Assembly: GCA_018662225.1 (NCBI GenBank)
Contig: JABJGO010000069.1
Location: forward strand, 1-64,000
Source of the DNA: Rhodospirillales bacterium
GTDB lineage: Bacteria > Pseudomonadota > Alphaproteobacteria > Rhodospirillales > Casp-alpha2
Direction: 5' to 3'
DNA: 64,000 nucleotides
The notes beneath the pieces were generated by a model, which saw only the letters and a list, made by a program, of their open reading frames with translations, was not told where the DNA came from and did not search any database. Within the stretch, counting starts at the first letter, position 1. The number at the start of each line of letters is the position of its first letter. Position numbers and translations under genes: made by a program. This document shows positions 12,865 to 28,783 of this stretch, piece by piece.

Positions 12865-14019
12865 TCAGGAGTACGGATCAGCGGCATCGCGCAGCCCGTC
12901 GCCCAGGAAGTTAAAGGCCAGCACCACGACAATAACCGGCAGCATGGGTAACATTAACCATGGGTAAAGTGCCACAGCATTGATGTTTTGTGCTTCCACC
13001 AGCAATACGCCCCAACTGGTAATCGGTGGGCGCAACCCCAGACCGAGGAAGCTAAGGGCTGTTTCACCCAAAATCATGGATGGAATTGACAACGTGGCGG
13101 ATGCTATCAGGTGGCTCATGAAATTGGGTAGAAGGTGGCGGCCGATAATACGTCTTGGCTTGGCACCCATGAGGGTGGCCGCCGTGCAATAGTCCTCTTC
13201 ACGCAGCGCCAGTAATTTTGATCGCACCGCCCTGGCCAGTCCAGGCCAGTCCAGCATGCCCAGAATGATCGTAATGCCCAGGTAGACCAGAATAGGGCTC
13301 CAGTTCACAGGTAATGCCGCCGACAGGGCCATCCACAGGGGGAGTTCCGGCATGGAGCGCAGAATCTCAATGACGCGTTGAACAGTTGCATCGACCCATC
13401 CGCCAAAATACCCAGCCGCACCGCCAATGGATATTCCCAGCAAGAAGCTTACTGTGATGCCGATCAGGCCCACGGTTAGTGACACTCGGCTGCCATAAAG
13501 AATGCGCGAGAACATATCGCGGCCCAGTCGGTCAGTGCCAAACAGGAACATGGTGCCGTCTTCGGCGGGGCATACCACGTGGAAGCTGCCTTCTATAACC
13601 CCCCAGAATGAATAGGAATCGCCCAAGCAGAAGAATCGCAAACGGTCGATCTTGTTCGTATTGATCGTGTATTCGCGTTTTAGATTTTCCATATTCAGGT
13701 GGTAATCCATGCCATATACAAAGGGGCCTTCGAATGAGCCTTCATGGAAAAAATGAACCTGTTGCGGGGGGGCGTAGATGAAGTCCGTATCCCGGCTGTG
13801 CAGATTGTACGGTGCGAGGAATTCAGCGATCAGGATGGATGCGTACATGAATATCAGGATAAAGCCTGAAATTACGGCCAGCTTGTGCCCCTGCAACCGC
13901 CACCAGATCATCTTCCACTGTGACGCCATGTAATAGCGTTCTTGTTCAGGGGTAAGGGCTTCGATGGTATGGGGATCAAAGGGCTCTTTATTGACGTAGT
14001 GTTCGATGTTCTTGCTCAT
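12865..14019 (-). CDS. Peptide-type ABC transporter permease, DppC/OppC/YejE family
   Basis: 384 aa. The first helix (about 49-70) is followed by a long extracytoplasmic insert (about 70-165), then five further helices. The permease EAA loop reads YCTAATLMGAKPRRIIGRHLLPN. The insert and large size match the YejE/microcin-C-type branch more than DppC. It is the last of four genes on the minus strand and its start overlaps the preceding permease stop by 4 bases, indicating translational coupling. Confidence 0.88.
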   Translation of the reverse strand: MSKNIEHYVNKEPFDPHTIEALTPEQERYYMASQWKMIWWRLQGHKLAVISGFILIFMYASILIAEFLAPYNLHSRDTDFIYAPPQQVHFFHEGSFEGPFVYGMDYHLNMENLKREYTINTNKIDRLRFFCLGDSYSFWGVIEGSFHVVCPAEDGTMFLFGTDRLGRDMFSRILYGSRVSLTVGLIGITVSFLLGISIGGAAGYFGGWVDATVQRVIEILRSMPELPLWMALSAALPVNWSPILVYLGITIILGMLDWPGLARAVRSKLLALREEDYCTAATLMGAKPRRIIGRHLLPNFMSHLIASATLSIPSMILGETALSFLGLGLRPPITSWGVLLVEAQNINAVALYPWLMLPMLPVIVVVLAFNFLGDGLRDAADPYS

Positions 14020-15014
14020 GCCCGGGTACTCCCCGTCAGCCGGATGCGCGGGTCAAGAACCGTCAATAAAACATCGGACACAAACATGCCAACAACGGTC
14101 AGCATGGCCAGGAAGATCAGGAATGATCCAGCCAGGTACATATCCTGGCTCTGCAACGCGCCAAGCAACATCGGCCCTGTTGTGGGCAGCGACATCACCG
14201 ATGATACAATGACCGAGCCGGAAACCACTTGGGGTAACAGGTTACCGATATCGGCAATAAATGGGTTCAAGGCCATACGAAGTGGATACTTAATCAGCAG
14301 TTTGCCGGGCGACAGGCCCTTGGCCCGGCCGGTAACAACGTACTGTTTGTGAAGTTCATCCAGCAAGTTCGCCCGCAACCGCCTGATCATACCCGCCGTG
14401 CCGGACGTGCCAATAACGACCACCGGCACCCAGAGATGTGCGGCGACGGACCATGCTTTGTCTATGGTCCAGGGTTGATCCAGATATTGTGGGTCCATCA
14501 ACCCGCCAATGGACGTGCCAAACCATACATTGGCAAAATACAATAACACCAACGCCAGCAGGAAGTTCGGTGTGGCAAGGCCAAGAAAGCCAATCAGCGT
14601 CAACCCATGGTCGCCCCAACTGTACTGATGGGTGGCTGAGTAAACGCCAATGGGAAAAGACACCATGTAGATAAAAATAATTGTGGCGAAGTTCAGGACC
14701 ATGGACAGGAACAAACGATCGCCCACGACCTCGTTGACCGGCAGGTTGTATTCAAAGGAATACCCCAGATCACCCTGTAGCAATCCGAATACCCAGGTGA
14801 AATATTGTTCTGGCATGGATTTATCGAGACCATACTGGCGCCGGAGAAATTCAATTTTTTCTTCATCCACCATCTCACCCTGGCTTTGCAGTTCTGCAAT
14901 ATAAGTGGAGAGGTAGTCACCAGGTGGTAACTGGATGATGATAAACACCAGTACGCTGATGGCTGCCAGCGTGAGCATCATGGAAAAAACACGTCGGATC
15001 AGGTATTCAAGCAT
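14016..15014 (-). CDS. Peptide-type ABC transporter permease, DppB/OppB/YejB family
   Basis: 332 aa, six predicted membrane helices. The N-terminal LEYLIRRVFSMMLTL is the hallmark of DppB-type permeases. The EAA loop reads YVVTGRAKGLSPGKLLIKYPLRMALNP. It pairs with the adjacent DppC-like protein to form the membrane channel and lies 14 nt after the substrate-binding protein gene. Confidence 0.9.
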   Translation of the reverse strand: MLEYLIRRVFSMMLTLAAISVLVFIIIQLPPGDYLSTYIAELQSQGEMVDEEKIEFLRRQYGLDKSMPEQYFTWVFGLLQGDLGYSFEYNLPVNEVVGDRLFLSMVLNFATIIFIYMVSFPIGVYSATHQYSWGDHGLTLIGFLGLATPNFLLALVLLYFANVWFGTSIGGLMDPQYLDQPWTIDKAWSVAAHLWVPVVVIGTSGTAGMIRRLRANLLDELHKQYVVTGRAKGLSPGKLLIKYPLRMALNPFIADIGNLLPQVVSGSVIVSSVMSLPTTGPMLLGALQSQDMYLAGSFLIFLAMLTVVGMFVSDVLLTVLDPRIRLTGSTRA

Positions 15015-15028
15015 GGGTCATACCTCTC

Positions 15029-16957
15029 CTAGTTTCCAGAATCAGCGGATTGCGGTTCATCGTCGAACCAAAAAGTATCGGGACGGTAGATACCGAAATG
15101 TGCGCCTGGATCCCAGTTGTAAATGCCTTCGGTCGGTACATTGTGCAGGCGATTATTGATCGCTACGGGCTGACGAACGCCGGACGCCAAGCCAATAGAA
15201 AACACATTGTCGGTGTATAAATCGAGCATTTCATTCCAGATATCACGGCGCGTGTCAGAATCCTCGGCGATCACCCAGGACTCGTTTAAACTCGCCAATC
15301 GTCGCGGCACGTCCATATCGATGGCCTCGCCCGCTTTTCCGTTAGTTTGATAGAACTGTCCCCACTTGGGCCATTGGAAGTGCTCCTGATTGGTGGGTGC
15401 CAACTCTTCTGGGCTAGTATCGGGGGTCGGGATACCGTTTTCCAGACCGAACCATACGGATATAAGTGTGGTGCCCGCAAAAATACGATTGCGCAGAACT
15501 TCACGTTGCAGGGGTTTGGTGTAAATCTTTATACCAGCCTTTAACCAACTGTCATGGACCAGTTCAAGCACGTCGGCCTGTTCTGTATCCTCGCCCGCTG
15601 TCTCCACAATAATCTCCATAGGTCGACCATCGGGTAGCAGGCGAACATTGCGGCTGTCACGTTCTGTGAGGCCCAGATCATCCAGAATACGATTGGCTTC
15701 GGTCAAATTGAAGTCGGACCAACGTTTGGCGAATTCAGCGTTATATAATGGACTTTGTGGCAGGGGCGAATTATTGCCCTCCCGGGCCAAACCAAAATAA
15801 ATGACCTGATTAATCTCGTGCCGGTCTGTTGCCATGGAAAGGGCTCGTCTGAATTCCACATTCCGGAACAGGGGCTGCCATTCCGGGTCGGTGGTGTTCA
15901 TATTTGGGAACAGCGCCATATGCGCACCCTTGGCTGTATGCCAAAGATTTACCGTGAAATCGTTGATCTTTTCACCCTGTTTCAAGAATGTGTAGTCACT
16001 GAACGATAGCGAGCGGGCCTGTAGATCAGATTCCCCGGACCCGGTTTTGGCAGAGATCAACTTGGCGCTGGCAATCGTGATGGCAACTTCATCGATGTAG
16101 GGTAATTGCCGTCCCTCGCTATCAATACGGTGATAATACGGATTGCGTTTGAAGATGAACCGTTCCGCCGGTGGTTTCGTGACCAGCACCCATGGCTGTA
16201 GCGTCGGTAGTGCCGGATTGTTGTTTCGATACTGGCGGCCGTTCTTGGTCATCAGAGAAACCCAGTTACGTTGGCCCTTGTCTTCGACCATACGGGCGAG
16301 TTCTTCCGGGTCCTGATAACTGGCGTGGAATTTCTTCATGTAGTGTGCAGGCCGGTACAGATAAAACGGACTGGCACGGGCAAGGGCAGGCAGGAAATAG
16401 GGGTTGGGACGATCCCACGTATACCGGACCGTAACATCATCAATGACGTCAAATTGTGGACCGCGGCCCCCAATGCGCAATATGGAAGGCAACCCCGACG
16501 GTGACACCTCTTCATTGTTGGCAATGTCATCCCAGTAGAACCGAAAATCTTCGGTGGTGAAGGGGCTGCCATCTGACCATTTATGGCCAGGGCGCAGGTG
16601 CAACGTGAATTCGCGACCTTCGCGTACTTCGATGTGGCGCAGGATATCGGGTTGGATGCTCAGATCCTGCGCATAACCGGCCAGGCGCGCGTATCCGTAA
16701 ACAACCAACAGCCGGATATCCTTGGCACGGCCCATGAGCAGTCGAAGCTGCCCACCATGCTGTCCCATAGCTTCCATGTCCGCCACATAAGGCTCAAACG
16801 GTAATCGATCTTCAAGTGGGGGCAGGGTGCCAGCGGCTACTTCGTCAGCAAGACTAGGTGTTTCCTTAATGGCGAAGTCCTGTGCCGAAGACGGTGCCAC
16901 ATTCATTGTTAGGGCCATCATCGTAAGGCACAGCAGGGGCGTTACCCATCTCATCAT
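15029..16957 (-). CDS. Extracellular solute-binding protein, family 5 (peptide/oligopeptide type)
   Basis: 642 aa with a signal peptide ending around PSSAQ (residue 25). SBP_5 features include FTLHLRPGHKWSDGSPFTTEDFRFYWDD and the later FRRALSMATDRHEINQVIYFG. It is longer than typical DppA (about 540 aa), again like YejA-type binding proteins. It captures the ligand in the periplasm; peptides, opines or other large solutes are possible. The start overlaps the stop of the ATPase gene by 4 bases. Confidence 0.88.
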   Translation of the reverse strand: MMRWVTPLLCLTMMALTMNVAPSSAQDFAIKETPSLADEVAAGTLPPLEDRLPFEPYVADMEAMGQHGGQLRLLMGRAKDIRLLVVYGYARLAGYAQDLSIQPDILRHIEVREGREFTLHLRPGHKWSDGSPFTTEDFRFYWDDIANNEEVSPSGLPSILRIGGRGPQFDVIDDVTVRYTWDRPNPYFLPALARASPFYLYRPAHYMKKFHASYQDPEELARMVEDKGQRNWVSLMTKNGRQYRNNNPALPTLQPWVLVTKPPAERFIFKRNPYYHRIDSEGRQLPYIDEVAITIASAKLISAKTGSGESDLQARSLSFSDYTFLKQGEKINDFTVNLWHTAKGAHMALFPNMNTTDPEWQPLFRNVEFRRALSMATDRHEINQVIYFGLAREGNNSPLPQSPLYNAEFAKRWSDFNLTEANRILDDLGLTERDSRNVRLLPDGRPMEIIVETAGEDTEQADVLELVHDSWLKAGIKIYTKPLQREVLRNRIFAGTTLISVWFGLENGIPTPDTSPEELAPTNQEHFQWPKWGQFYQTNGKAGEAIDMDVPRRLASLNESWVIAEDSDTRRDIWNEMLDLYTDNVFSIGLASGVRQPVAINNRLHNVPTEGIYNWDPGAHFGIYRPDTFWFDDEPQSADSGN

Positions 16958-18855
16958 GCGGGGCCTCCTGCCGAAGATGGCTTCTTGTGCGCCCTGATCA
17001 GATGACCCTTACCGCAATTGAGAAGCGGTGTGGTGGTGTCGTCGAGCGGTCCAAACGGTTCTGGCCAGTGCGCCGGTGATGAGGCTTGCTCTTCTTTCAG
17101 CGCGGCGAAATCCAGCGGATGATTTGGGTCAGGGTAAGGGACTGCCGCAACCAGAGCCCTTGTATACGGGTGCATGGGGTTGCGGAACAATTCTTCGCGG
17201 GGCGCCACTTCAACGATTTGTCCCGCGCACATAACAGCAATGCGATCGGCGATATAATCGACCACGGCCAGATTGTGGGAAATGAACAGATATGTCAGTC
17301 CCAGATCTTTTTGAAGGTCTTTGAGCAGGTTCAAAATTTGGGCCTGTACGGAAACATCCAGCGCTGATACCGGCTCATCACACAAAACTAGATCGGGTTT
17401 CAGGGCAAGCGACCGGGCAATGCCCACACGCTGACGCTGACCGCCGGAAAAGCTGTGCGGATAGCGGTTCAGCCACCGTGGGTCGAGGCCCACCAGGTTC
17501 ATAAGTTCCTGAACGAATTCACGTCGGTACGTGGCATCACCGATGCCATGGATGGCAAGCGGTTCACTTAACAGATCATGCACGGTCATGCGTGGATTGA
17601 GCGAACTGAACGGGTCCTGGAAAATATATTGGATTTTCTGCCGGATGGGGATCATCGCCTGATCGCCCAGATGCAACAAATCGGTATCTTCGCCGTTGTC
17701 TGAGAACACCACCTCGCCGTTATCGGGATTAATGCTGCGCATGATGATCTTGGAAAGCGTCGTCTTGCCGCACCCGGATTCACCAACCAGCCCCAGGCAT
17801 TCGCCACGCTTGATATCGAAAGACACATCATCGACGACCAGCGTTGGCTTGATAGCCGCCGAGGACGTAAACAGCCCCTTGTGGCTGCGGTTCTCAAAGC
17901 TTTTGGATATGTTCCGCACGGACAGGATTGGTGCCTTTCCATGTTTCGGTTTGGCCCCAACATATTCGCGCAACAGCGTTCCGGCTTCGTGCTTGATTTC
18001 ACGCAAGGGGACAAGGCGCTCGCCATCCTTCATATCGAAGTGTGGCACGGCTTTGAGAAGCGCCTTGAGATAGGGGTGCTTTGGCTTGGAAAAGATGTCC
18101 TTTGTGGAGCCACGTTCCATAATCTCGCCGTGATAGGCGACCACGACTTCGTCTGCCATGTTTGCGACGACACCCAAATCATGGGTGATCATCAACACGG
18201 CCATGCCCAAATCCTGCTGCATGTCTTTGATCAACTTCAGAATTTGTGCCTGAATGGTAACGTCAAGAGCCGTGCTTGGTTCATCTGCGATCAACAGCGC
18301 CGGACGGCACACCAGTGCCATAGAAATCATAGCCCGTTGGCGCAAGCCCCCGGAAAGCTCGAACGGATAGGTGTCAAAGGCACGCACCGGGTCAGGAAAC
18401 CCGACTTTCTCAAGCATGTCGATGGATAGCGCCTTGGCTTCAGCCACGTCCGCATCACGGTGTAGAAGCAGTGCTTCGCTGATCTGATCGCCGATGGTAT
18501 GAAGCGGAGACAGCGAGGTCATGGGCTCCTGAAAAATCATGGATATTCGATTGCCGCGAATTTGGCGGAATGCTTCTGACCTCGGGTCCAACTTTGCGAT
18601 ATCAATGGGCGCGCCCTCAGCACCGTGTGACTCGACGTCATTAAATAGAATTTCGCCGCTGTTAATAGATGCCGGGCGCGGTAACAGGCCTAGAATAGCC
18701 TGTGCCGTCACAGACTTCCCAGAACCGGACTCGCCCACGATCGCAACGGTAGAGCCTGCCGAAATCTGGAAAGATACGTCACTGACTGCCCGTACGAGGC
18801 CGGATGGTGTGTCAAATGAAACACCTAGATTTTGCACATCCAGCAGTACACTCAT
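16954..18855 (-). CDS. Tandem ABC ATPase of peptide-type importer (DppD-DppF fusion, YejF-like)
   Basis: 633 aa with two complete nucleotide-binding domains. The first has Walker A GESGSGKS, signature LSGGLRQRA and Walker B LLIADEPSTALD. The second has Walker A GESGCGKTT, signature FSGGQRQRVGIARSL and Walker B LVLCDEPVSALD. A domain-linking oligopeptide C-terminal region follows each. The protein energises the importer whose other genes follow. As the first gene of the four-gene operon, it sets an order of ATPase, binding protein, permease B, permease C. It starts 40 nt after the end of the deacetylase gene. Confidence 0.9.
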   Translation of the reverse strand: MSVLLDVQNLGVSFDTPSGLVRAVSDVSFQISAGSTVAIVGESGSGKSVTAQAILGLLPRPASINSGEILFNDVESHGAEGAPIDIAKLDPRSEAFRQIRGNRISMIFQEPMTSLSPLHTIGDQISEALLLHRDADVAEAKALSIDMLEKVGFPDPVRAFDTYPFELSGGLRQRAMISMALVCRPALLIADEPSTALDVTIQAQILKLIKDMQQDLGMAVLMITHDLGVVANMADEVVVAYHGEIMERGSTKDIFSKPKHPYLKALLKAVPHFDMKDGERLVPLREIKHEAGTLLREYVGAKPKHGKAPILSVRNISKSFENRSHKGLFTSSAAIKPTLVVDDVSFDIKRGECLGLVGESGCGKTTLSKIIMRSINPDNGEVVFSDNGEDTDLLHLGDQAMIPIRQKIQYIFQDPFSSLNPRMTVHDLLSEPLAIHGIGDATYRREFVQELMNLVGLDPRWLNRYPHSFSGGQRQRVGIARSLALKPDLVLCDEPVSALDVSVQAQILNLLKDLQKDLGLTYLFISHNLAVVDYIADRIAVMCAGQIVEVAPREELFRNPMHPYTRALVAAVPYPDPNHPLDFAALKEEQASSPAHWPEPFGPLDDTTTPLLNCGKGHLIRAHKKPSSAGGPA

Positions 18856-18895: not shown

Positions 18896-19708
18896 TCATA
18901 CTGCAAATACCTCTGCGCCATTGAGCCATCTCACAGCGCTGTGTTCATTCAAAGTACTAAACAAGGTATCCAAAAAATGCCAGCATTCATCGTCATGGAC
19001 AAGGTGATGACTAAGAACCCCTGTTGGTTCGCTACCGTCGCATTTTTGCGAACGTCGGGCAATTAGATGATTGCATATTTGCCCACAAACGTGATTTTCA
19101 CCTGCGAACCCGCGTGACCCGCGCCAGTCTACAATATCAGCATGGGTATTTACCTGAATCAGACCGGGAACGGTTTCACGCTGTTGTCGGGCGCCAAACG
19201 TTGACAAGCCGACAATACTGGAATCGACAAAATTCTGGTGGAAATCGGGGGAGACCCGATTCCATGGCGGCACAAATGCGGGAAAGAAGCCTGGAAATGC
19301 GGACAGGGTAGCTTGGCCCGCAGCTAATTCGTCGTTAATGACAGTTTTGTCCCGACCAGAACCAAATTCAGATTTCTTCACACCATCGGGTTCATGGTTT
19401 TGGTGCGCATAACCGTGCTGGACAATACACAGATGCTCAGGCGTATCGGGACCAGTGCACAAACCGGCTTCTGCTGCGTTCGGAATGACCGCGAGTGTTA
19501 GCGGCACACGGTGGTTGCTTGATAGTGTATAGAGTTGATGAAGTGCAGGCGTGTGCGCCACAGCATCATCATCACGCCACCACATCGTGGCGGTAGCCCC
19601 AAGATCAGACCACATGTCTAACTCGGTATTCAGGTCGTCCCAGGCGCTCACAGACACCTCGGTGCAATCGTTCTTCGCGCACGTTTCTATATTCGTGTAT
19701 GGGGCCAA
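18896..19708 (-). CDS. Polysaccharide deacetylase-family protein
   Basis: 270 aa. It has the metal-site aspartates in WWRDDDAVAHTP and the His pair in QHGYAHQNHEP. A later PAFVPPWNR segment supplies the conserved Arg of the NodB-like barrel. No signal peptide is visible, so it may be cytoplasmic and act on lipid-linked glycan precursors. It is the last gene of a seven-gene minus-strand cluster with four glycosyltransferases and starts 9 nt after the stop of the giant ABC protein. The substrate is unknown. Confidence 0.75.
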   Translation of the reverse strand: MAPYTNIETCAKNDCTEVSVSAWDDLNTELDMWSDLGATATMWWRDDDAVAHTPALHQLYTLSSNHRVPLTLAVIPNAAEAGLCTGPDTPEHLCIVQHGYAHQNHEPDGVKKSEFGSGRDKTVINDELAAGQATLSAFPGFFPAFVPPWNRVSPDFHQNFVDSSIVGLSTFGARQQRETVPGLIQVNTHADIVDWRGSRGFAGENHVCGQICNHLIARRSQKCDGSEPTGVLSHHLVHDDECWHFLDTLFSTLNEHSAVRWLNGAEVFAV

Positions 19709-19717
19709 CTGTACAAC

Positions 19718-22700
19718 CTACGCCTTTTCAGTCAACGAATGAAGGTTCTCTGTGTTTAATTCGAAGATTTTTAGATCGCAGATCTGTCTCAAGTCGATCG
19801 AATGACCATCCACCTGTAAAGGCTCGCCCAGCGATTCTGAGATGCGACCCAGTAACAACTCGGATGTCTCGTCTGTTTCCAGTCCACGGGCAATAATGCC
19901 GTACCTGAATCCTGATAGCTTACCAAAGGAATCCGCAGCGCGAACCGTTGGTTTGATACGGCTCGCAATTTCGCGAATGACGAGTTGCTGATTATCCAAA
20001 TTCGACTGCAAGGGCTCAAGGTCGGTTAAACGGTCGAAATCAATGCGGATGAACGAGGATACATGCTTCCGTCGCTCATCAATGTGGACCGTGGTTTTCA
20101 TGTTATCGATGAACAGATTTTGGTTCTGTAGCATGGATACCGGATCATACAGCTCGTAATGTGCGCTCATGGTCCGCATCATGGCTTCCAGTTTGGCTGC
20201 CAGAATATGTGACAGATTCGCCCCCACAGCCGGGTTATCCTGGATAAGCTTGAGGAACACACCCTTATCGATTTTTAGAACGGTTGCATGTTCATTAGCC
20301 CGAACGGTCGCGGTTCTTGGTGCTTCACACAACAAGGCAAGTTCACCGATGACGCTGCCGCGTCCGGTATCCGCAATCTTGATCTTACCTTGGGCGGTGT
20401 CGGCAACAATACTGAAAGTACCGTCGACGACAACATAGGCTACATCACCGCTTTCGCCCTGCTGGATGAGGATTTCTTGAGCTTCCAGAGTCTGACGCTT
20501 ACTGGTAAATGCCAGAAGTTTAAGGCTCGAGCGATCAAGTCCGGCGAAGAATGCCGCACGGGCAAGTAACTCGGCGTCGGTGCCAATTCCGTCATCTTCG
20601 CCCGAAGAGTCTGCTTCGTTGGATACGGGAACTCCCCCGCTTTCCTGTATGGATGTTTCCTTAACCTTCCCAGCCTCGGCCATGAATATGCGGTCGAACT
20701 GTGACGGGTCGGGTAATTCGCTGTCCACCCACACTAGGCCTCGGTCCTTCATGGCAGATTTCACGGCAGTGAAAACCGACGTCTTGGATCCACTGTCCAA
20801 AACGCCCGTTGCTTCGTTGACAATGAACATCTGCGGGTCTTTCACCAGGTTCCGCGCAATGGCCAATTTTTGGCGCTGGGGTGCGGACAATCGACGACCC
20901 GAAATACCCACTTCGAAGGTCAGGCCCGTTTCCAGAATGGGCAACCTGAGATCAAGCTCATCGAATACAGATGCTGCCAGAGATTGAATTTTCTCAGCAC
21001 TGTCTGCCCGATTAGAATCGACTTTACCGAACAACGCATTGTCCAGAATGCTACTGGCCGGGTTGTAGGTTTCCGCGTCGAAAAATGATATTTTATCGCT
21101 CATATTCTCTGGCAGGTCTTCGGAGAAGGCTTTCCGGGCGGCCAGTAATCGTGGCTCAACTTCTTCATCCAGAATGCCCAACCGGTGGCGGGCGCGGACC
21201 AACTTGAACGGCAATTGCAATAAGCGCTCACGCTGTTCTTCCGTCAGAGCGGAGAGGCCATCACTAACCGGTACCTTGAGCATAACTTGATAGTCAGGAA
21301 GATCATCGGCGCTAATAAAACTGAAACGCTCAAAGAATTCATGACCTGGTTCCAGATCATGGAAAAGTTCCACCATCAGGGCGGCTACTTTTCTGCCCAT
21401 TTCGATAAAGTCATCGTACAACCCGACCTTCTTCAGGGTCGCCAACACGATCTCGTTCTTGCTCAGAGATTCCACATCAAAGGTGTCATCGACAGGCGTT
21501 CCAAACAGGATGTTTTCGGCCACCGATGCGTTTTCGTTGTAGGCGTTCCAATCCCATGCTTCGACCAACCCGTTGTATTCCGGATCCTTCACGCGCGTCC
21601 GAATTATCTGGCGGGCTTTGAGGGCACCCTCAGCTAGCACGGTGTTCTGCGACGGGTCGATGGTGCTGCGTACACCAATGTCCATAATGTCACCCTCAAG
21701 GCCGACCGCTTGTAGGGCAGACATGGCACGTTGCAATAAACCGTCACCGTTCTTGTTGTTGATAACGCTCAAATCCAGCCAGTCTGAATCGTAAGGGTAG
21801 GGGCTGTTACCCGACTGTTCGGATTCCATTTGTGCGCGTTTGGCTTCGTCTGACGAATTCGGCTCGCTCTGCGGGTAATGTTTCAGGCCGTAAAACAGAT
21901 TATCCCGGATCGTTCCGGATCGAATGTAGGCCTCTTGATCCACATAGCCGATTTGGCGACCAGTAACATGTTCAGGTGTGGTGCTGAGATCACTACCACC
22001 AATGGTGAGGTTACCGGATGTAGGCGATATCTGGCGGGCAATAAGTTGTGCCACGGCGGATTTCGGTCCGCCAGCCCGACCCGTAATGCCTACATGTTCA
22101 CTGGTACTAAACGTGAAGTTGGCATTCTCCAGAATTTTGGTGCCTTCGTCCTCTTCCAGAACAAGGTTCGATGCCACGACGTTACCGTCCACGCGTGCAC
22201 CGCCTTCAAGGCTTGCCGCCATGACGGCTTCTGGGTACATGTTTGGTGCGTCGAAGCGGTCGATCAACTGGGTGTACTTGATCCGGCAATCTTCCATACG
22301 TTGATAGAAGTTCAGCAATTCTTTCCAGGGCGGTGACAAGTCTTTATATGCGGCCAGAATGGCAACCAGCGCACCAATGGATAAATCACCCGTGATGACC
22401 AGGTAGCCACCAATGGAATAGAAGAAAAACGGCGTTACCTGCGCGAGGAAGTTATTGACGAACTTGATAAAAAATTTCTTCCGGTATACCTGAAACCGGA
22501 TGTCGAAAATCTTGCCGAGCCTTGTCGAGAAATCAGACATTTCATACTGCGATGTGTCATGGGCATGAATTTCAGCCGATCCCGCAACCATTTCATTGAT
22601 GCGTTCAGATAATTTTCGGACGTTCTGGATACGCTCCTTGTTCAGCAGATTAACCTTGCGCTGAAGCTTCGGGATGACCCAGCCCTGAACCGGGTATAGG

Positions 22701-23224
22701 GCAATGGCAGCGATCCCAAGAATAGGATCTTGCACAAACATAAATATGAGGGCGGTGATCAGCATGCCGCCTTGAAAGGCTGGCAAAGACAGGGATTCCG
22801 CCATGAAACCACCCAAAGGTTCGGTTTCGGCGGTCACCATGGACACGATCTCGCCCTCGGAAATGTTACGGAAGTGGGGTAGCGGGAATCGCAACACCTG
22901 ATTGACCAGTTGATACCGGAACCGGCGAAGCATACGTTCACCAACCACGCCACGATAAACATTCAGGAAGTACTTGAAACCGCCATTGATCAGGACGAGG
23001 GCCAGAAATGCGAAGCTTAGGGACAGTAGATAATCAATCTGGCCCAGCTCGTAACCCAGAACGTCAGTCGGGAAAGCCGACCCACCGATGGCGTCGTTGA
23101 TGATAGTTTTGGGCAAATCCAGTGAATAATAATAGAACGGAAACGACAGCATAGTAACCAGTAAAAGCGTAACCTGCTGCTTCTTGCTGTAACGCAAGAT
23201 AAAACCAAAGACACCCTTCTCCAC
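19718..23224 (-). CDS. Very large ABC exporter-like protein with triplicated degenerate ATPase helical segments, cyclic-nucleotide domain and degenerate GGDEF-like end
   Basis: 1168 aa from a GTG start after AGGGGG. Residues 1-320 are an exporter-type membrane domain. Residues 380-850 form a broken-up ATPase: the Walker A equivalent reads GRAGGPKS (residues 382-389, Pro replacing the last Gly). Three Q-loop-like segments follow at 432-447, 561-576 and 719-734, and three signature-helix-like segments at 530-548, 660-678 and 779-797; Walker B is FIVNEAT with Asn for Asp. Residues 890-1000 are a CNB domain and 1056-1155 look like a degenerate GGDEF domain (SGFRY). ATP hydrolysis is doubtful. The cluster context suggests glycan export or its control. 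Confidence 0.8.
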   Translation of the reverse strand: MEKGVFGFILRYSKKQQVTLLLVTMLSFPFYYYSLDLPKTIINDAIGGSAFPTDVLGYELGQIDYLLSLSFAFLALVLINGGFKYFLNVYRGVVGERMLRRFRYQLVNQVLRFPLPHFRNISEGEIVSMVTAETEPLGGFMAESLSLPAFQGGMLITALIFMFVQDPILGIAAIALYPVQGWVIPKLQRKVNLLNKERIQNVRKLSERINEMVAGSAEIHAHDTSQYEMSDFSTRLGKIFDIRFQVYRKKFFIKFVNNFLAQVTPFFFYSIGGYLVITGDLSIGALVAILAAYKDLSPPWKELLNFYQRMEDCRIKYTQLIDRFDAPNMYPEAVMAASLEGGARVDGNVVASNLVLEEDEGTKILENANFTFSTSEHVGITGRAGGPKSAVAQLIARQISPTSGNLTIGGSDLSTTPEHVTGRQIGYVDQEAYIRSGTIRDNLFYGLKHYPQSEPNSSDEAKRAQMESEQSGNSPYPYDSDWLDLSVINNKNGDGLLQRAMSALQAVGLEGDIMDIGVRSTIDPSQNTVLAEGALKARQIIRTRVKDPEYNGLVEAWDWNAYNENASVAENILFGTPVDDTFDVESLSKNEIVLATLKKVGLYDDFIEMGRKVAALMVELFHDLEPGHEFFERFSFISADDLPDYQVMLKVPVSDGLSALTEEQRERLLQLPFKLVRARHRLGILDEEVEPRLLAARKAFSEDLPENMSDKISFFDAETYNPASSILDNALFGKVDSNRADSAEKIQSLAASVFDELDLRLPILETGLTFEVGISGRRLSAPQRQKLAIARNLVKDPQMFIVNEATGVLDSGSKTSVFTAVKSAMKDRGLVWVDSELPDPSQFDRIFMAEAGKVKETSIQESGGVPVSNEADSSGEDDGIGTDAELLARAAFFAGLDRSSLKLLAFTSKRQTLEAQEILIQQGESGDVAYVVVDGTFSIVADTAQGKIKIADTGRGSVIGELALLCEAPRTATVRANEHATVLKIDKGVFLKLIQDNPAVGANLSHILAAKLEAMMRTMSAHYELYDPVSMLQNQNLFIDNMKTTVHIDERRKHVSSFIRIDFDRLTDLEPLQSNLDNQQLVIREIASRIKPTVRAADSFGKLSGFRYGIIARGLETDETSELLLGRISESLGEPLQVDGHSIDLRQICDLKIFELNTENLHSLTEKA

Positions 23225-23350: not shown

Positions 23351-23386
23351 CTAATGTTCATTAGTAGTACCTAACGTTTATTAGTA
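23351..23386. promoter_or_regulatory. Pair of palindromic direct repeats upstream of the ABC gene
   Basis: CTAATGTTCATTAGTA (23351-23366) and CTAACGTTTATTAGTA (23371-23386) differ at two positions, lie 20 bp apart and each contains CTAA...TTAG. The spacing of two helical turns is typical of a repressor pair. The second copy overlaps the stop codon of the upstream glycosyltransferase gene. The target would be the promoter of the 19718-23224 gene. Confidence 0.4.
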
Positions 23387-24513
23387 ATTATTCCTGCGGT
23401 CCTGGTTGCTCCTTCAAGTGAAAAGGGTGAATATTTTGAGTGACTTCGAGAGATCGCCTGATTGATTCCCGCACTCAAAAGATCAAGAGACAGCGCGGTT
23501 TCGGCTATCATGGTCACATAACCGTGATTGTGGAGGATGGCGGCTCTGCGGCTTTGTTCATCCTCGTCACCGCTGCCAAACGGCACAACAATGGCGGCAC
23601 ATCCTGCCCGTATTATATCCATCATGGTGTTATAGCCACCTTGCGAAATGGACAGGGTGCAGTTCTTGAGCAATGCGCCATAATCAGAACGGTTGGGCTC
23701 AATCAAGATGCCCGGGTCATTCAGGTCTGCAATGGCGCTGACGATAGAACTCGGCAGGTTGGGTCCAATCAGGAACCGCCATGTGAGGTGCGATAGCGAG
23801 CTTTGGGCCTTGGCACGGGCCACACAAATCATCAAGTCAGCCCCGACAGCGCCACCGCCAGCGGCAACGATGACCTCATCGCGCCCGGTATCGACGCAAT
23901 CTTCGGTATTCGGGTTTTCCGGTGGTGCTACATACCCCGAGTAGTGAATTTTGCCGGCAAATGCGTAGGCCAGTGGAAAGGTGGTTTCGAATGGTACGAA
24001 TGCCGGATCGCCATGCACGATGACGGTATCGAAGTAAGCGTCGATATAATCCACGGTTTGCTGATGCTTCGCAGGCGTGTTTTTGGTCACCAAAATATCG
24101 CGCACAGAGCAGACAATGCGAGGCCTGGGTTTGCTCGCCAATGCCAGGTCCAGCAAAGGCAACAGCTCGAACCGAAATTGGCGGCGACCAAAAGGGAACT
24201 GTTCAATCAATAACACATCAGGGGCGAGGTCTGTATAGAGCGCCAACAACTGATCGCGCCGGTCATCCCGCCACGTATCGTCCACGGGCCGACCATTGTA
24301 ATCTACCAAACCTGAAAATGCCGCATCGGCGGCACGTGCTTGCGGTAATTCATGGCAGGTACAGCCATCAAACGTCATGCCGTCAACGGGTGTCCCGCCC
24401 AGAACGACGTGAACATCCAGACCAGCTTCGACCATGGCTTGCGCGATGAGTGTCGCCCGTTTTACGTGGCCGACGCCCAGAAGGTGTTGAACATAGAAAA
24501 GGACCCGTTCCAT
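23371..24513 (-). CDS. MurG-like glycosyltransferase (GT28-type)
   Basis: 380 aa, GT-B fold. The N-terminal MERVLFYVQHLLGVGHVKRA is the nucleotide-free domain start of this family, and the C-terminal SISQGGYNTMMDIIRAGCAAIVVPF is the GT28/MurG-type donor-sugar site. It resembles the product of 27497-28783 in both motifs, so the two are probably paralogues. It lies 3 nt after the histidine phosphatase stop. Acceptor and donor are unknown; a cytoplasmic role in polysaccharide assembly is inferred from the cluster. Confidence 0.82.
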   Translation of the reverse strand: MERVLFYVQHLLGVGHVKRATLIAQAMVEAGLDVHVVLGGTPVDGMTFDGCTCHELPQARAADAAFSGLVDYNGRPVDDTWRDDRRDQLLALYTDLAPDVLLIEQFPFGRRQFRFELLPLLDLALASKPRPRIVCSVRDILVTKNTPAKHQQTVDYIDAYFDTVIVHGDPAFVPFETTFPLAYAFAGKIHYSGYVAPPENPNTEDCVDTGRDEVIVAAGGGAVGADLMICVARAKAQSSLSHLTWRFLIGPNLPSSIVSAIADLNDPGILIEPNRSDYGALLKNCTLSISQGGYNTMMDIIRAGCAAIVVPFGSGDEDEQSRRAAILHNHGYVTMIAETALSLDLLSAGINQAISRSHSKYSPFSLEGATRTAGIITNKR

Positions 24514-24516
24514 TCC

Positions 24517-25104
24517 TTAGGTCTCAACCAGCGGAATATCCGGCTCCAGCAGGCTCACTTTACCATTTTCTGAAATCATAAATTGTCGGCAGGTATTCGG
24601 GTGCAGCTTGTTCGGGTCTTTTCCCAGCATGTCCCAACCCGTGGCCAGCGCCGTAACCGCCCGGATGAGCCCCTTGTGGGTGACGGCAGCCACGGGAAAA
24701 CGAATATTCTTCAAACTTTGCAACCAAGGTAAAACGCGCTCTTGCACCATGCGCGGGCTTTCGCCACCTGAAGGGCAAAAATCCAGGCCTAACAATTCCT
24801 GATACACCATGGATGAGCTGTGGTTTTTTCTGAGGTCATTCAGGGTCTCACCTTCCCAGGCACCCCAATCCATCTCAATCAGGCGATCTTCTATGATTGG
24901 ATTTACACCGAGAATCTTTGCGGTTTGCTGCGTGCGGGTCAACGGACTTGAATGCCAATGCGCGTGTCGGATTTCTTCCGGTAACTGCCAAGTGGCCGCA
25001 ATAGAGTGGCCGAAATCACTAAGCGGAATATCGGCGCGCCCTTGCATGCGTCCCTGTTCGTTCCAAGCTGTTGGCGCGTGCCGGATGAGACTGAGTACAG
25101 GCAT
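24517..25104 (-). CDS. Histidine phosphatase superfamily protein
   Basis: 195 aa. The start is set at ATG 25104, which overlaps the stop of the upstream glycosyltransferase by one base (TGATG); a longer frame to 25170 lies inside that gene. It has RHG-type LSLIRHAPTAWNEQGRMQG, SPLTRTQQTA and VTHKGLIRAV. Placed between glycosyltransferases, it may dephosphorylate a sugar phosphate or sugar-nucleotide intermediate, which is inference. It is distinct from the phosphatase at 2042-2605. Confidence 0.85.
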   Translation of the reverse strand: MPVLSLIRHAPTAWNEQGRMQGRADIPLSDFGHSIAATWQLPEEIRHAHWHSSPLTRTQQTAKILGVNPIIEDRLIEMDWGAWEGETLNDLRKNHSSSMVYQELLGLDFCPSGGESPRMVQERVLPWLQSLKNIRFPVAAVTHKGLIRAVTALATGWDMLGKDPNKLHPNTCRQFMISENGKVSLLEPDIPLVET

Positions 25105-26255
25105 CAGGTAACCTCCGCCAAAAGGTGGTTCAGTGACTGTGCAGCCCCATTGAGGCCATGGTGCTGCCATGTGTGTTGTTGCGCCCGATCTGACATGGTT
25201 TGCAGCTTACCCGTATCATCCAACAGGTCTGCGATGGCCTGTGCCATCTGGTCTGTGTTGCCGGGCTCTACCAATGTGCCGCATTCAGGCGCGTTGACCA
25301 CGCCACTGACGCCACCAACGTTACCAGCCACCACAGCCAGACCGGCGGCTTGTGCTTCTACAAAAGCCATACCGAATGCTTCATTGATAGCGGGCCATAC
25401 ATATAAATCGCAGGCCGCGTAGATGCCGGGCAGGGATTCGATATCCTGTGCGCCTATCCAATGTACGCGATCCGCAACAGGCGATAACGCATCTTTCACC
25501 TGATCACGGGCCGGGCCATCTCCAACCACGAGCAGATTCCAAGGGCGGTCCTGAATTTTTGCCAATGCCCCAACTTTCGCTAATGATTGGCCCAAGCATT
25601 CATAGGACTGTAGTTTATCACCGGGACGCATCATGGCCACACACATCAACCAGGGTACGGATGGATCAATATTATACTGTCCGGCTGTCATGGCTCGGTA
25701 CACGGTTCTTTCCCTCGCTGCCGAAGCGTAGGGTTGAGTATCAATGAACGGCGACAGTTGGGCAATACGTGCACCGGGACGTAGAAAGGGGGCCACGCAG
25801 CCATCATCGGTTGGGTTGAGGCTGATCACCATCGAAGCCATGCCGATTGCGCGTTCGCTCGCGCGCAAGCCTTGATCCCATGGACCGCCTGACTGTTTGG
25901 CCGCGTAGGAAGCTTCGGCAATGACATAGGGAATGTTCAGGGCTTCTGACACACGAGGACCAATCCAGTCCGGAGCCTTATGATACAGGTGGTAGCTAAA
26001 CCAAAGTTTGGGTGCCTCGATCTTGCCCGCCGCATATGCATCCAACAGCCCCATAGCCTGCCGGTCACCTTCTTGTTTGATGGCCGCTTGGCTTTCGGCG
26101 TCGCCGGTTCCGTCATAGGCCCGGTGCTGGCTGGCCAGATGGATTTGATGGCCGCCATGGTCCATGGCCTGCATCAATAACTGGGCCATGCGGCGATCCC
26201 CTGACGGCACGGAGTGCTCGGGTGATTTCATGGGGGCGTAGAAGGCGATCAACAT
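25104..26255 (-). CDS. Glycosyltransferase family 4 protein
   Basis: 383 aa, GT-B. The C-terminal donor-binding half shows LLVVGDGPARDQVK, then CDLYVWPAINEAFGMAFVEAQAAGLAVVAGNVGGV, including the E-x7-E of GT4. The N-terminal half (FYAPMKSPEHSVPSGDRRM) is the acceptor domain. It overlaps the next gene start by one base and the preceding gene by 7 bases, so the cluster is tightly coupled. Sugar specificity is not predictable. Confidence 0.85.
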   Translation of the reverse strand: MLIAFYAPMKSPEHSVPSGDRRMAQLLMQAMDHGGHQIHLASQHRAYDGTGDAESQAAIKQEGDRQAMGLLDAYAAGKIEAPKLWFSYHLYHKAPDWIGPRVSEALNIPYVIAEASYAAKQSGGPWDQGLRASERAIGMASMVISLNPTDDGCVAPFLRPGARIAQLSPFIDTQPYASAARERTVYRAMTAGQYNIDPSVPWLMCVAMMRPGDKLQSYECLGQSLAKVGALAKIQDRPWNLLVVGDGPARDQVKDALSPVADRVHWIGAQDIESLPGIYAACDLYVWPAINEAFGMAFVEAQAAGLAVVAGNVGGVSGVVNAPECGTLVEPGNTDQMAQAIADLLDDTGKLQTMSDRAQQHTWQHHGLNGAAQSLNHLLAEVT

Positions 26256-27487
26256 GTTAACCCAAACCGTCGCGCAAGGTCGTCAATGCCACCGTCCAAT
26301 GAAAATGACTGTCGAACGCGCTGTTCACCGGTTTGACCCAGGGTCTGGCGTTGGATCGGGGCTTTGATCAGGTCGGACAAGGCGTGGCTTAAGGCGTTTG
26401 CATCGTCCGGTGGCACCAGAATGCCGGTCTTCCCATGGATGATCAGTTCCGGGATCGCCGAGACACGGGTGGCAACACACGCCAACGCCTGGCTTTGTGC
26501 TTCCATCAGCACATTCGGCAGACCGTCGCGGTCGCCGTCGTCGGCAATGCGTGAATTGAGCACGAAGATATGGGCTTCACCGAACGCGCGGAAAACTTGA
26601 TCCTGTGGTAAGGCGCCGCGCCATTCTATGCGAGTGCCGATGCCCAGATCGTCGGCCAATGATTTGAGCTTAGCCGTAAGGGCGCCGCCACCGATGTGAA
26701 TGAGCCGCCAATGTAGACCGCCCGGCAGTTCGGCCAGTGCATGCAAAAGCCCGTCATATCCTTTTTTTTCAACGGCCCGGCCCACGGACAGGATGACCAC
26801 TGGGTCATCAGCGATCGTGCCGTTGGCTGTTTTGGTGGTTGTTTCGTTTTGTCGTGCGGGTGGAGGAAATCGGGTGAAGTCCAAACCATGATACACCCGT
26901 GATACCACGTCATCGGAAGGGGCCAGGTTTGATAAAAAGTCAGTATTGGCCTGCGTACATGTGACCAACCACCGGCAGTCGGAAAGCTTTTCGCGCAGTT
27001 CCCACTCGGGCGACGTGTAGATGTCTTTGGCGTGGGCTGAACAGCTCCAGGGTAATTCCAGCATCATGGCCGCATAGCGGGTTACCGATGCCGGGGTGTG
27101 CAAAAAATGGGCGTGGAGCTGTTTGACAGTATCTTGTAGTTCAGTTGCCAGAACACAGGCCTGGCCAAAACGGCGAATGCGGCTTCTGGAAAAATCCCTG
27201 GCTAAATCGCGTTTCCATATATTCCGCGCCTTGGTGTATCCGGGCAACGCGCGTGCTTTTAGATAAGCGCTCAATACACGTGCCGGTTCAGCGTGCAGAT
27301 ACTCGGGCAGGTAGCTAACCGGGGATATGATTTCGTCATGGATGGGGTGACGATGTGGGTCCGTTGGATGCCGTAGAGATATTATCTGAATAGTCAGACC
27401 ACGTTTTTCCAGGGCCCGAATTTCCTGGGCGATGAACGTTTCAGAAAGTCGAGGATATCCCTTTAAGACAAAGGCTACGGTGCTCAC
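26249..27487 (-). CDS. Glycosyltransferase family 4 protein
   Basis: 412 aa. N-terminal VAFVLKGYPRLSETFIAQEI is typical of GT4 enzymes of the exopolysaccharide type. The C-terminal half shows VILSVGRAVEKKGYDGLLHAL and GLPNVLMEAQSQALACVATRVSAIPE, the E-x7-E donor site. Its stop overlaps the next gene by 7 bases. The sequence suggests transfer of a hexose or related sugar to a lipid-linked or membrane acceptor. Confidence 0.87.
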   Translation of the reverse strand: MSTVAFVLKGYPRLSETFIAQEIRALEKRGLTIQIISLRHPTDPHRHPIHDEIISPVSYLPEYLHAEPARVLSAYLKARALPGYTKARNIWKRDLARDFSRSRIRRFGQACVLATELQDTVKQLHAHFLHTPASVTRYAAMMLELPWSCSAHAKDIYTSPEWELREKLSDCRWLVTCTQANTDFLSNLAPSDDVVSRVYHGLDFTRFPPPARQNETTTKTANGTIADDPVVILSVGRAVEKKGYDGLLHALAELPGGLHWRLIHIGGGALTAKLKSLADDLGIGTRIEWRGALPQDQVFRAFGEAHIFVLNSRIADDGDRDGLPNVLMEAQSQALACVATRVSAIPELIIHGKTGILVPPDDANALSHALSDLIKAPIQRQTLGQTGEQRVRQSFSLDGGIDDLARRFGLTC

Positions 27488-27496
27488 GAGTATTCT

Positions 27497-28783
27497 CTAA
27501 CCAATAACGCTGAGCTCAGCGACACCAGGTGCGGATACCTCGGTCGGTGACTCGCTGGCCCATCGATCTACCACCGCGTTGATGGTGGAAAGGCCGTCGA
27601 GCAGGCCCGGAATATGGATCGCTGATGGCGGCGCTTGATGTTCCAGACCTTCAATCGCATGGGCCATGTCCTCAGGACGCCGTTCATCATCGTCCAGAAG
27701 CATGGACGACAGGCCCAGCTCTTCGGCGCGTTTCGCCCGAATGAATTGCTCCAGCCGGGGTACGGTACGGGGCACGATGACACACGGCTTATCGAAGGAT
27801 AGAACTTCACAGAATGTGTTGTAGCCGCCCATGGCGACCACGCCAGAAGCATGCTCAAACAAGGCTTCCATATGCGAATCAAACGTAATGGCGTGCACGG
27901 CATCCAGCCGACTGACCCGTGACATGAAACCTGATTGTAATTTTGATTGCATAAAGGGGCCCAGAACAAGCAAGGCCTGAATGTCCAAGCGTTTGTAGTG
28001 CTCATATGCGCGCAGTACCCAGTCAATCAAGGTGGCGCCGTCGCCGCCACCGCCCGTCGTGACCAGAACATAGGGCTTATGTGGGTCAAATTTATCCGAA
28101 ACATAGGGCATGGCAACGGTGGAATCCCATGACCGTCTGAGGTACCCGGTATAGATGGCTTTGTTGCGAACCACATCAGGCAGATCTACACCAGCCAACG
28201 GATCGCACACGTCTTTCAGCCCGTATATCCATATTTGGTCGTAAAGATCACGCAGAGCGGGTAAGGCCTTTTTGCGTTCCCATTCTTCTGACAGGACACC
28301 CGGTTCATCAAGCACGTCACGCAAACCCAGAACGGTGGGGACACCTTTTTCTTTTAACATTTTAAGGGTGTCGGCGACTTCACCGCGCAATCCCAAAGGT
28401 TCCTTATCCACGATGAACAGGTCCGGATCGAACATTTCTGCCGTGTGTTTGATCAATCCGGCGCGCAGGGCGACGGTTTCTTCGATATCCATTTCCAGAC
28501 TCAGCGATGTGTATTCGCCGTGTCGCAATTTGATCACGCCCGGAATGCGAATGAAATCCACGCGAGTCCGGAAATCGAAACTACCAATGATGGGTGAGCC
28601 TGATAAAATCAATACGGATAAATCGGCCCGATGCCCCACAAGCGAATGCGCAATGGTCTGACATCGGCGCAGGTGTCCCAGGCCGAATGTGTCGTGGCTA
28701 TAGATAAGCAGCCGTTTACCGGGTCTCAATTGTTTCAAGAGCGAAGTGGTTCCCCATCGGCATGGCCATTCAGCCACGTTCAT
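27497..28783 (-). CDS. MurG-like glycosyltransferase (GT28-type), first gene of the glycan cluster
   Basis: 428 aa. LIYSHDTFGLGHLRRCQTIAH marks the N-terminal domain, and VLVTTGGGGDGATL with VAMGGYNTFCEVLSFDKPCVIVPR marks the GT28 donor site. A paralogue lies at 23371-24513. The upstream region to the divergent SLC13 permease gene is 169 nt and should hold the promoter for the whole minus-strand cluster. The initial 20 residues are not conserved in appearance, so the start could lie slightly inside. Confidence 0.82.
   Translation of the reverse strand: MNVAEWPCRWGTTSLLKQLRPGKRLLIYSHDTFGLGHLRRCQTIAHSLVGHRADLSVLILSGSPIIGSFDFRTRVDFIRIPGVIKLRHGEYTSLSLEMDIEETVALRAGLIKHTAEMFDPDLFIVDKEPLGLRGEVADTLKMLKEKGVPTVLGLRDVLDEPGVLSEEWERKKALPALRDLYDQIWIYGLKDVCDPLAGVDLPDVVRNKAIYTGYLRRSWDSTVAMPYVSDKFDPHKPYVLVTTGGGGDGATLIDWVLRAYEHYKRLDIQALLVLGPFMQSKLQSGFMSRVSRLDAVHAITFDSHMEALFEHASGVVAMGGYNTFCEVLSFDKPCVIVPRTVPRLEQFIRAKRAEELGLSSMLLDDDERRPEDMAHAIEGLEHQAPPSAIHIPGLLDGLSTINAVVDRWASESPTEVSAPGVAELSVIG

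Follow-up and report, generated by a model that had tools for sequence, protein, structure and literature searches.

What does an ABC protein do when its ATPase domain carries the same docking segment three times and the residues that would burn ATP are degenerate? The question is raised by a gene in the genome of a Rhodospirillales bacterium, in a stretch of 64,000 nucleotides that is called the window here. The original prediction described one exporter membrane domain, an ATPase domain with three degenerate Q-loop/signature repeats, a cyclic-nucleotide-binding (cNMP) domain and a degenerate GGDEF-like end. This observation is partly confirmed and holds in its main points. The gene is a single open frame of the position and length described, with a GTG start (Table 1). 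Pfam analysis of the 1168-residue protein yields the one ABC_membrane domain (64-291), ABC_tran in two separated stretches, cNMP_binding at 911-997 and a weak GGDEF match at 1025-1165. The ATPase core is interrupted by about 290 extra residues. Literature searches did not find a description of the protein itself, and it is referred to as the pseudo-ABC protein in this text.

The family described here is a variant of the type-IV ABC exporter superfamily, which is its closest kind. It shares the fold of the transmembrane domain (TMD), the core fold of the nucleotide-binding domain (NBD), the x-loop and the signature-helix region with MsbA, Sav1866, TM287/288, PCAT1 and the ComA NBD (Z 26-28). 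Unlike these exporters, the pseudo-ABC protein is without the catalytic residues, has the docking segment three times and carries appended cNMP and GGDEF domains.

Table 1. Positions in the window of the pseudo-ABC gene, its parts and the other genes of the run
Feature	Residues	Window position	Strand	Remarks
Pseudo-ABC gene, whole	1168 aa	19718..23224	(-)	GTG start; exporter TMD, interrupted NBD, cNMP, degenerate GGDEF
ABC_membrane exporter-type TMD	1-325	22250..23224	(-)	PF00664 E=3.4e-24; AF2 helices
Degenerate Walker A	382-389	22058..22081	(-)	GRAGGPKS; family form GxxGSGK(D/S/E)
Unit R1	420-545	21590..21967	(-)	Q-loop strand, SGTIRDNLFYG, ~35-aa insertion, invariant Arg538; E=1.5e-7 to exporter Q-loop region
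Unit R2	546-705	21110..21589	(-)	NASVAENILFG and conserved HEFFERFSFI / LPFKLVRARHRL insert; invariant Asn571, His680, Arg697
Unit R3	706-795	20840..21109	(-)	SSILDNALFG, VGISGRRLSAPQRQ signature (LSxxQ); invariant Asn729, Gly733, Gly776, Arg791; E=2.7e-31 to ordinary exporters
Walker B, Asp to Asn	799-804	20813..20830	(-)	MFIVNE; Asn in 63/91
cNMP-binding domain	911-997	20234..20494	(-)	PF00027 E=3e-19; canonical phosphate-binding cassette GELALLCEAPRTA
Degenerate GGDEF-like domain	1025-1165	19730..20152	(-)	GGDEF motif lost, KLSGFRYG in its place
GT28-type glycosyltransferase, first gene of run		27497..28783	(-)	Orthologue of S. meliloti gene assigned to smb21265
GT4 glycosyltransferase		26249..27487	(-)	Profile match; conserved neighbour
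GT4 glycosyltransferase		25104..26255	(-)	Orthologue of S. meliloti gene assigned to smb21252
Histidine phosphatase family protein		24517..25170	(-)	PF00300 E=3.4e-35; in 45/80 loci
GT28-type (MurG-like) glycosyltransferase		23371..24513	(-)	PF04101; conserved neighbour
DUF2334 / polysaccharide-deacetylase-like protein		18896..19708	(-)	E=1.1e-5, just below cut-off; 37% to S. meliloti polysaccharide deacetylase
OppD-OppF fused ATPase		16954..18855	(-)	Canonical Walker A in both halves
Family 5 solute-binding protein		15029..16957	(-)	Pfam
OppB-type permease		14016..15014	(-)	Pfam
OppC-type permease, last gene of run		12865..14019	(-)	Pfam

Repeats within the ATPase domain

The Q-loop-like motifs AYIRSGTIRDNLFYG, AYNENASVAENILFG and TYNPASSILDNALFG start exactly at residues 432, 561 and 719, as originally placed. 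In an alignment of 91 relatives, the asparagine of the motif is kept in 86 (N442), 91 (N571) and 91 (N729) members (95, 100 and 100%). The units were compared by profile-profile alignment, with each pair set against 60 column-shuffled decoys. Units R2 and R3 matched with E=1.7e-14 (z 21.6), R1 and R3 with E=1e-5 (z 8.0) and R1 and R2 with E=9e-5 (z 8.2), and other segments of the protein gave decoy-level scores only. By these profiles, the three Q-loop-like units are homologous internal repeats. In alignments with ordinary exporters, the match covers the N-lobe and the Q-loop of R1, breaks off for about 300 residues and resumes with the signature of R3 and Walker B. Given this split and the homology of the units, the domain is therefore read as one NBD with extra Q-loop/docking copies between Q-loop and signature.

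An AlphaFold2 monomer model was built with 91 family members (pLDDT 87, pTM 0.70). Its residues 343-867 superpose on 231 of the 239 residues of the ComA NBD (rmsd 2.0 A, Z 27.7), which predicts a core with the fold of a single ordinary NBD, not two. The original prediction had named two ordinary NBDs as the outcome that would speak against it, and this arrangement was not seen in the model. The NBD also matches the ordinary exporter profile (hhalign E=3.3e-41), and the model matches TM287 with Z 27 over 439 residues.

Folded alone, the middle unit R2 gave a model with pLDDT 91 and pTM 0.85, for which the nine best VIA-align rows were all ABC proteins (ranks 1-7 exporters, rank 8 CFTR NBD1, rank 9 ABCF1). 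As the Z of 5.0-5.5 in the best five rows is below the usual trust level, the predicted match of this unit to ABC helical subdomains is supportive but not decisive. In MsbA, the aligned part was chain residues 425-498, which span the Q-loop through to the signature helix. A plain Foldseek search with unit R2 alone gave nothing significant, and a PDB sequence search with it did not find an ABC relative. The ComA superposition, the exporter alignment, the repeat profiles and the structure matches of unit R2 back the earlier description of one NBD core with a tripled helical segment, unlike the standard ABC layout.

The helices fared differently. Signature-like helices had been proposed at 530, 660 and 779. 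For the helix at 779 there is a match to exporter signatures (E=3.5e-17), whereas helices 524-550 and 683-709 match neither this signature nor ordinary exporters (z 1.3 and 1.1), and the stretch 655-697 reached only E=0.14. Signature-like helices in units R1 and R2 are thus not supported, and neither is the idea of three full Q-loop plus signature repeats; a signature is backed by sequence in unit R3 only. A C-terminal helix is common to R1 and R2 only (E=1.7e-7). Judging from the aligned range in the VIA-align comparison, residues 689-703 are a likelier structural counterpart of the signature helix in R2 than position 660.

The insert of unit R2 (residues 621-705, window 21110-21364) holds the most striking family-specific motif, which reads LPPGHEFFERFSFI...LPFKLIxARHRL in the family and includes the invariant His680. 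A known counterpart of this motif was not found; the insert is a candidate partner-binding site.

Catalytic site, selection and family

A genome scan detected 529 relatives in Rhodospirillales, Azospirillum, Thalassospira, Inquilinus, Rhizobiales-type and gammaproteobacterial genomes, and Rhizobium and Sinorhizobium plasmids carry them as well. When genomes were drawn evenly from the phylum, 32 of 398 had one. The 91 aligned relatives were scored at seven catalytic positions (Walker A, Q-loop, LSGGQ, Walker B D-E, H-loop). The full exporter set is absent from all of them, the maximum is four of seven motifs, and a Walker A Lys-Ser/Thr occurs together with a Walker B Asp-Glu and the H-loop His in 0/91. 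The Walker A lysine is present in 67/91 (arginine in 18/91), and the Ser/Thr that should follow it is missing in most. Both substitutions named in the original prediction are there: Pro387 in place of the Walker A glycine is unusual even within the family (3/91, with Gly in 83/91), and the asparagine in Walker B is found family-wide. Asn-Glu is the commonest Walker B pair (n=41), Glu804 is kept in 57/91 relatives, and the change from Asp to Asn and the missing H-loop His are the family norm. As an internal control, OppDF of the same operon keeps a canonical Walker A in both halves. Because catalytic residues are missing across the family, the NBD is catalytically degenerate and probably non-hydrolysing. 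Due to the frequent retention of the Walker A lysine and Glu804, it may still bind nucleotide or hydrolyse it slowly.

Degenerate catalytic motifs are also what one would expect of a decaying transporter gene whose motifs have eroded for lack of function, but purifying selection is strong in every domain of this gene. Against the nearest orthologue, pN is 0.15 and pS 0.80 for the whole gene, 0.17 and 0.82 for the NBD, and 0.07 and 0.75 for the TMD. With more than 500 relatives and with the non-catalytic residues N571, N729, G733, G776 and R791 invariant across the 91, decay is scarcely credible and was rejected. The residues of VGxxG and DNxLxG, which in ordinary exporters are associated with the docking segment and with the coupling of TMD and NBD, are nearly invariant.

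A further explanation is an ATP-driven exporter or flippase of lipid-linked glycans (MsbA/PglK-like) with drifted residues, in which hydrolysis is perhaps slow or carried out by a heterodimer of paralogues, and cyclic nucleotide only tunes the activity. The predicted TMD and NBD folds are intact and the Walker A lysine and Glu804 often kept, as this explanation would have it, but a full catalytic site is found in 0/91 members and the Walker B and H-loop losses are the rule. Some genomes have two copies (e.g. G044:C37 and G038:C13), as a heterodimer would need; the genome of the window has one full copy only, and so no same-family partner. A Wzx- or Wzm-type flippase was not seen among the conserved neighbours, which leaves room for such a function, but the equivalog profiles of MsbA (176.8 bits, cut-off 602) and PglK (76.4 bits, cut-off 1000) score far under their cut-offs. 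We consider an ATP-driven exporter unlikely.

Cyclic-nucleotide and GGDEF-like domains

The cNMP domain is clear from its Pfam score, and the canonical cassette with its Glu and Arg is present in 78 of the 96 cNMP regions found in the loci. The typical relative has about 880 residues, and its cNMP domain is a separate gene. Among 62 unfused loci, a separate cNMP ORF lies directly downstream in 48 (median gap 4 nt) and is absent in four. On a 90-member tree, two changes account for the distribution of the unfused label, which is consistent with a cNMP fusion that arose in about one event. The addition of GGDEF is limited to the cNMP-fused clade, with some further changes. The size of the family, the usually separate cNMP gene and the conserved polysaccharide operon described below had not been foreseen.

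For the GGDEF-like end, the profile comparison that had been suggested gave 22.0 bits for the window protein (E=1.5e-4), just below the Pfam cut-off of 23.8. Two orthologues, L003 and L024, pass it with 34.1 and 46.3 bits (3e-8 and 5e-12). Homology to GGDEF domains is thus established via the orthologues, and the catalytic motif is absent.

In NHLM-type exporters an ABC exporter is likewise joined to a cyclic-nucleotide-binding domain, but their NBDs are ordinary and catalytic and they export peptides. The likeness was compared by profile score only, and the window protein scores 95 bits on TIGR03797, below the cut-off of 709.

Class III cyclase ORFs are found in 18 of 80 loci, compared to 4.7 expected from a background rate that was taken from one genome, the window's own. 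A class III cyclase gene also adjoins the S. meliloti and R. leguminosarum clusters, and the adenylate cyclase gene cyaA is depleted under phazolicin (PMC10128002). Together with the retained cassette, these observations fit a cAMP/cGMP input to the system. The reading of a cyclic-nucleotide-linked, probably non-hydrolysing protein is supported by motif scoring, by cassette conservation and by the downstream cNMP ORFs, all of them sequence-based. In one locus, a class III cyclase domain is joined to a DUF427 domain beside the cNMP gene of the cluster (L049:13122-14762).

The polysaccharide operon and the proposed function

Eleven same-strand genes run from 28783 down to 12865 in the order GT28, GT4, GT4, histidine phosphatase, GT28, pseudo-ABC, DUF2334, OppDF, solute-binding protein, OppB and OppC. 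Among 47 loci of at least 20 kb, each glycosyltransferase is found in 37-38, the phosphatase in 33, DUF2334 in 31 and OppDF in 34. Between 23000 and 29200, a promoter scan found no more matches than chance would give. An Opp-type transporter with a fused OppD-OppF (window 15029-16957 and 16954-18855) is conserved alongside the polysaccharide genes.

Orthologues of 10 of the 11 operon genes and of the cNMP gene are found in the PPP cluster of S. meliloti (smb21252-smb21271), with 37-65% identity. This pSymB cluster differs in that its cNMP gene is separate and annotated as Crp/Fnr, GGDEF is missing, and an orthologue of the phosphatase was not found. The gene order on pSymB was anchored on smb21247-21249 (PMC5498481) and on smb21252, smb21265 and smb21271 (PMC10128002), and by this order the cluster is the published PPP locus. 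The pseudo-ABC and cNMP genes are placed inside smb21252-smb21271 by gene order only, since the text of the paper does not carry the full list of nine genes. PPP is an uncharacterised, protective surface polysaccharide that is reported to require nine genes of the interval smb21252-smb21271; insertions in them lower fitness under phazolicin in Tn-seq, and smb21252 and smb21265 mutants were tested directly (PMC10128002). Seven of the nine genes rise under Myxococcus predation (PMC10315480). The paper on the Clr regulon covers the neighbouring nodP2-smb21248 cluster, not the PPP cluster (PMC5498481).

We think it fairly probable that this catalytically degenerate type-IV exporter ABC protein is a cyclic-nucleotide-controlled membrane component of a PPP-like system for polysaccharide assembly or export. 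The TMD would form an exporter-like dimer, and the NBD core, having lost its catalytic residues family-wide, would no longer run the ATP hydrolysis cycle. The triple coupling-helix-docking segment, the repetition of which is shown, could give the NBD a larger surface towards the TMD or towards partners. Binding of cAMP or cGMP to the cNMP domain (fused here, a separate partner in most relatives) would shift the NBD-TMD arrangement, and this shift would switch either the flipping or export of lipid-linked glycans or the activity of the co-encoded glycosyltransferases. The C-terminal GGDEF relic would be an addition specific to this lineage and would probably serve in sensing or dimerisation. 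With its lost ATP-burning residues, its tripled docking part and a cNMP sensor in a polysaccharide operon, the protein thus has the appearance of a membrane gate or regulator under signal control, not of an ordinary pump.

A gate has to be weighed against a pure scaffold or signalling regulator that moves no substrate and relays the signal of the cNMP domain either to the Opp transporter or to the glycosyltransferases encoded with it. SUR1/SUR2 and other non-transporting ABC proteins work in a similar way, as regulators with the architecture of an ABC exporter. SUR differs in that its two NBDs are ordinary and its partner is a potassium channel, and it is without a cNMP domain and without the triplicated segment. 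SUR2 entries are the top rows of the structure comparison, but with an rmsd of 15. Such a role would agree with the loss of catalysis, the repeated docking unit and the constant co-location with glycosyltransferases and an Opp-type transporter that has canonical Walker A motifs. However, the TMD is the best conserved region in the family alignment (71% mean column identity), which is beyond the need of a bare anchor, and contact with Opp lacks direct support. We regard a pure regulator as quite improbable. The original prediction had suggested a regulator rather than a pump; a flippase or a component of export that is gated would be no less likely, since conservation is among the highest in the exporter-type TMD and in the motifs for contact between TMD and NBD.

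It is a more tentative proposal, and one to which we would not yet commit ourselves, that the relatives form a widespread ABC exporter subfamily without ATP hydrolysis, with a tripled docking subdomain and under cAMP/cGMP control, which acts as a ligand-gated flippase, channel or regulator that licenses the export of protective polysaccharide. If true, bacteria would have their own equivalent of the ABC proteins that became gated regulators, and it could be studied in rhizobia and azospirilla, which are open to genetics and offer a scorable phenotype (phazolicin sensitivity). For an uncharacterised surface polysaccharide that shields symbionts from an antimicrobial peptide, it would name both a second-messenger input and a candidate component of export or control, and it would offer a natural test of the role of the helical subdomain when freed from catalysis.

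In G044:C37 and G038:C13, two full paralogues lie on one contig in opposite orientation, and such pairs are possible heterodimers. There are also homologues of 404-441 residues that consist of the TMD without an NBD, such as L123 (G000:C54:5908-6834) and L104:11773-13077, in the window's own genome and in roseobacters. Apparently, this TMD can exist without any ATPase domain. The copy in Phaeobacter has copper oxidase/plastocyanin genes on one side and cytochrome c genes on the other, and that in the window's own genome adjoins copper-oxidase-like frames and a two-component pair.
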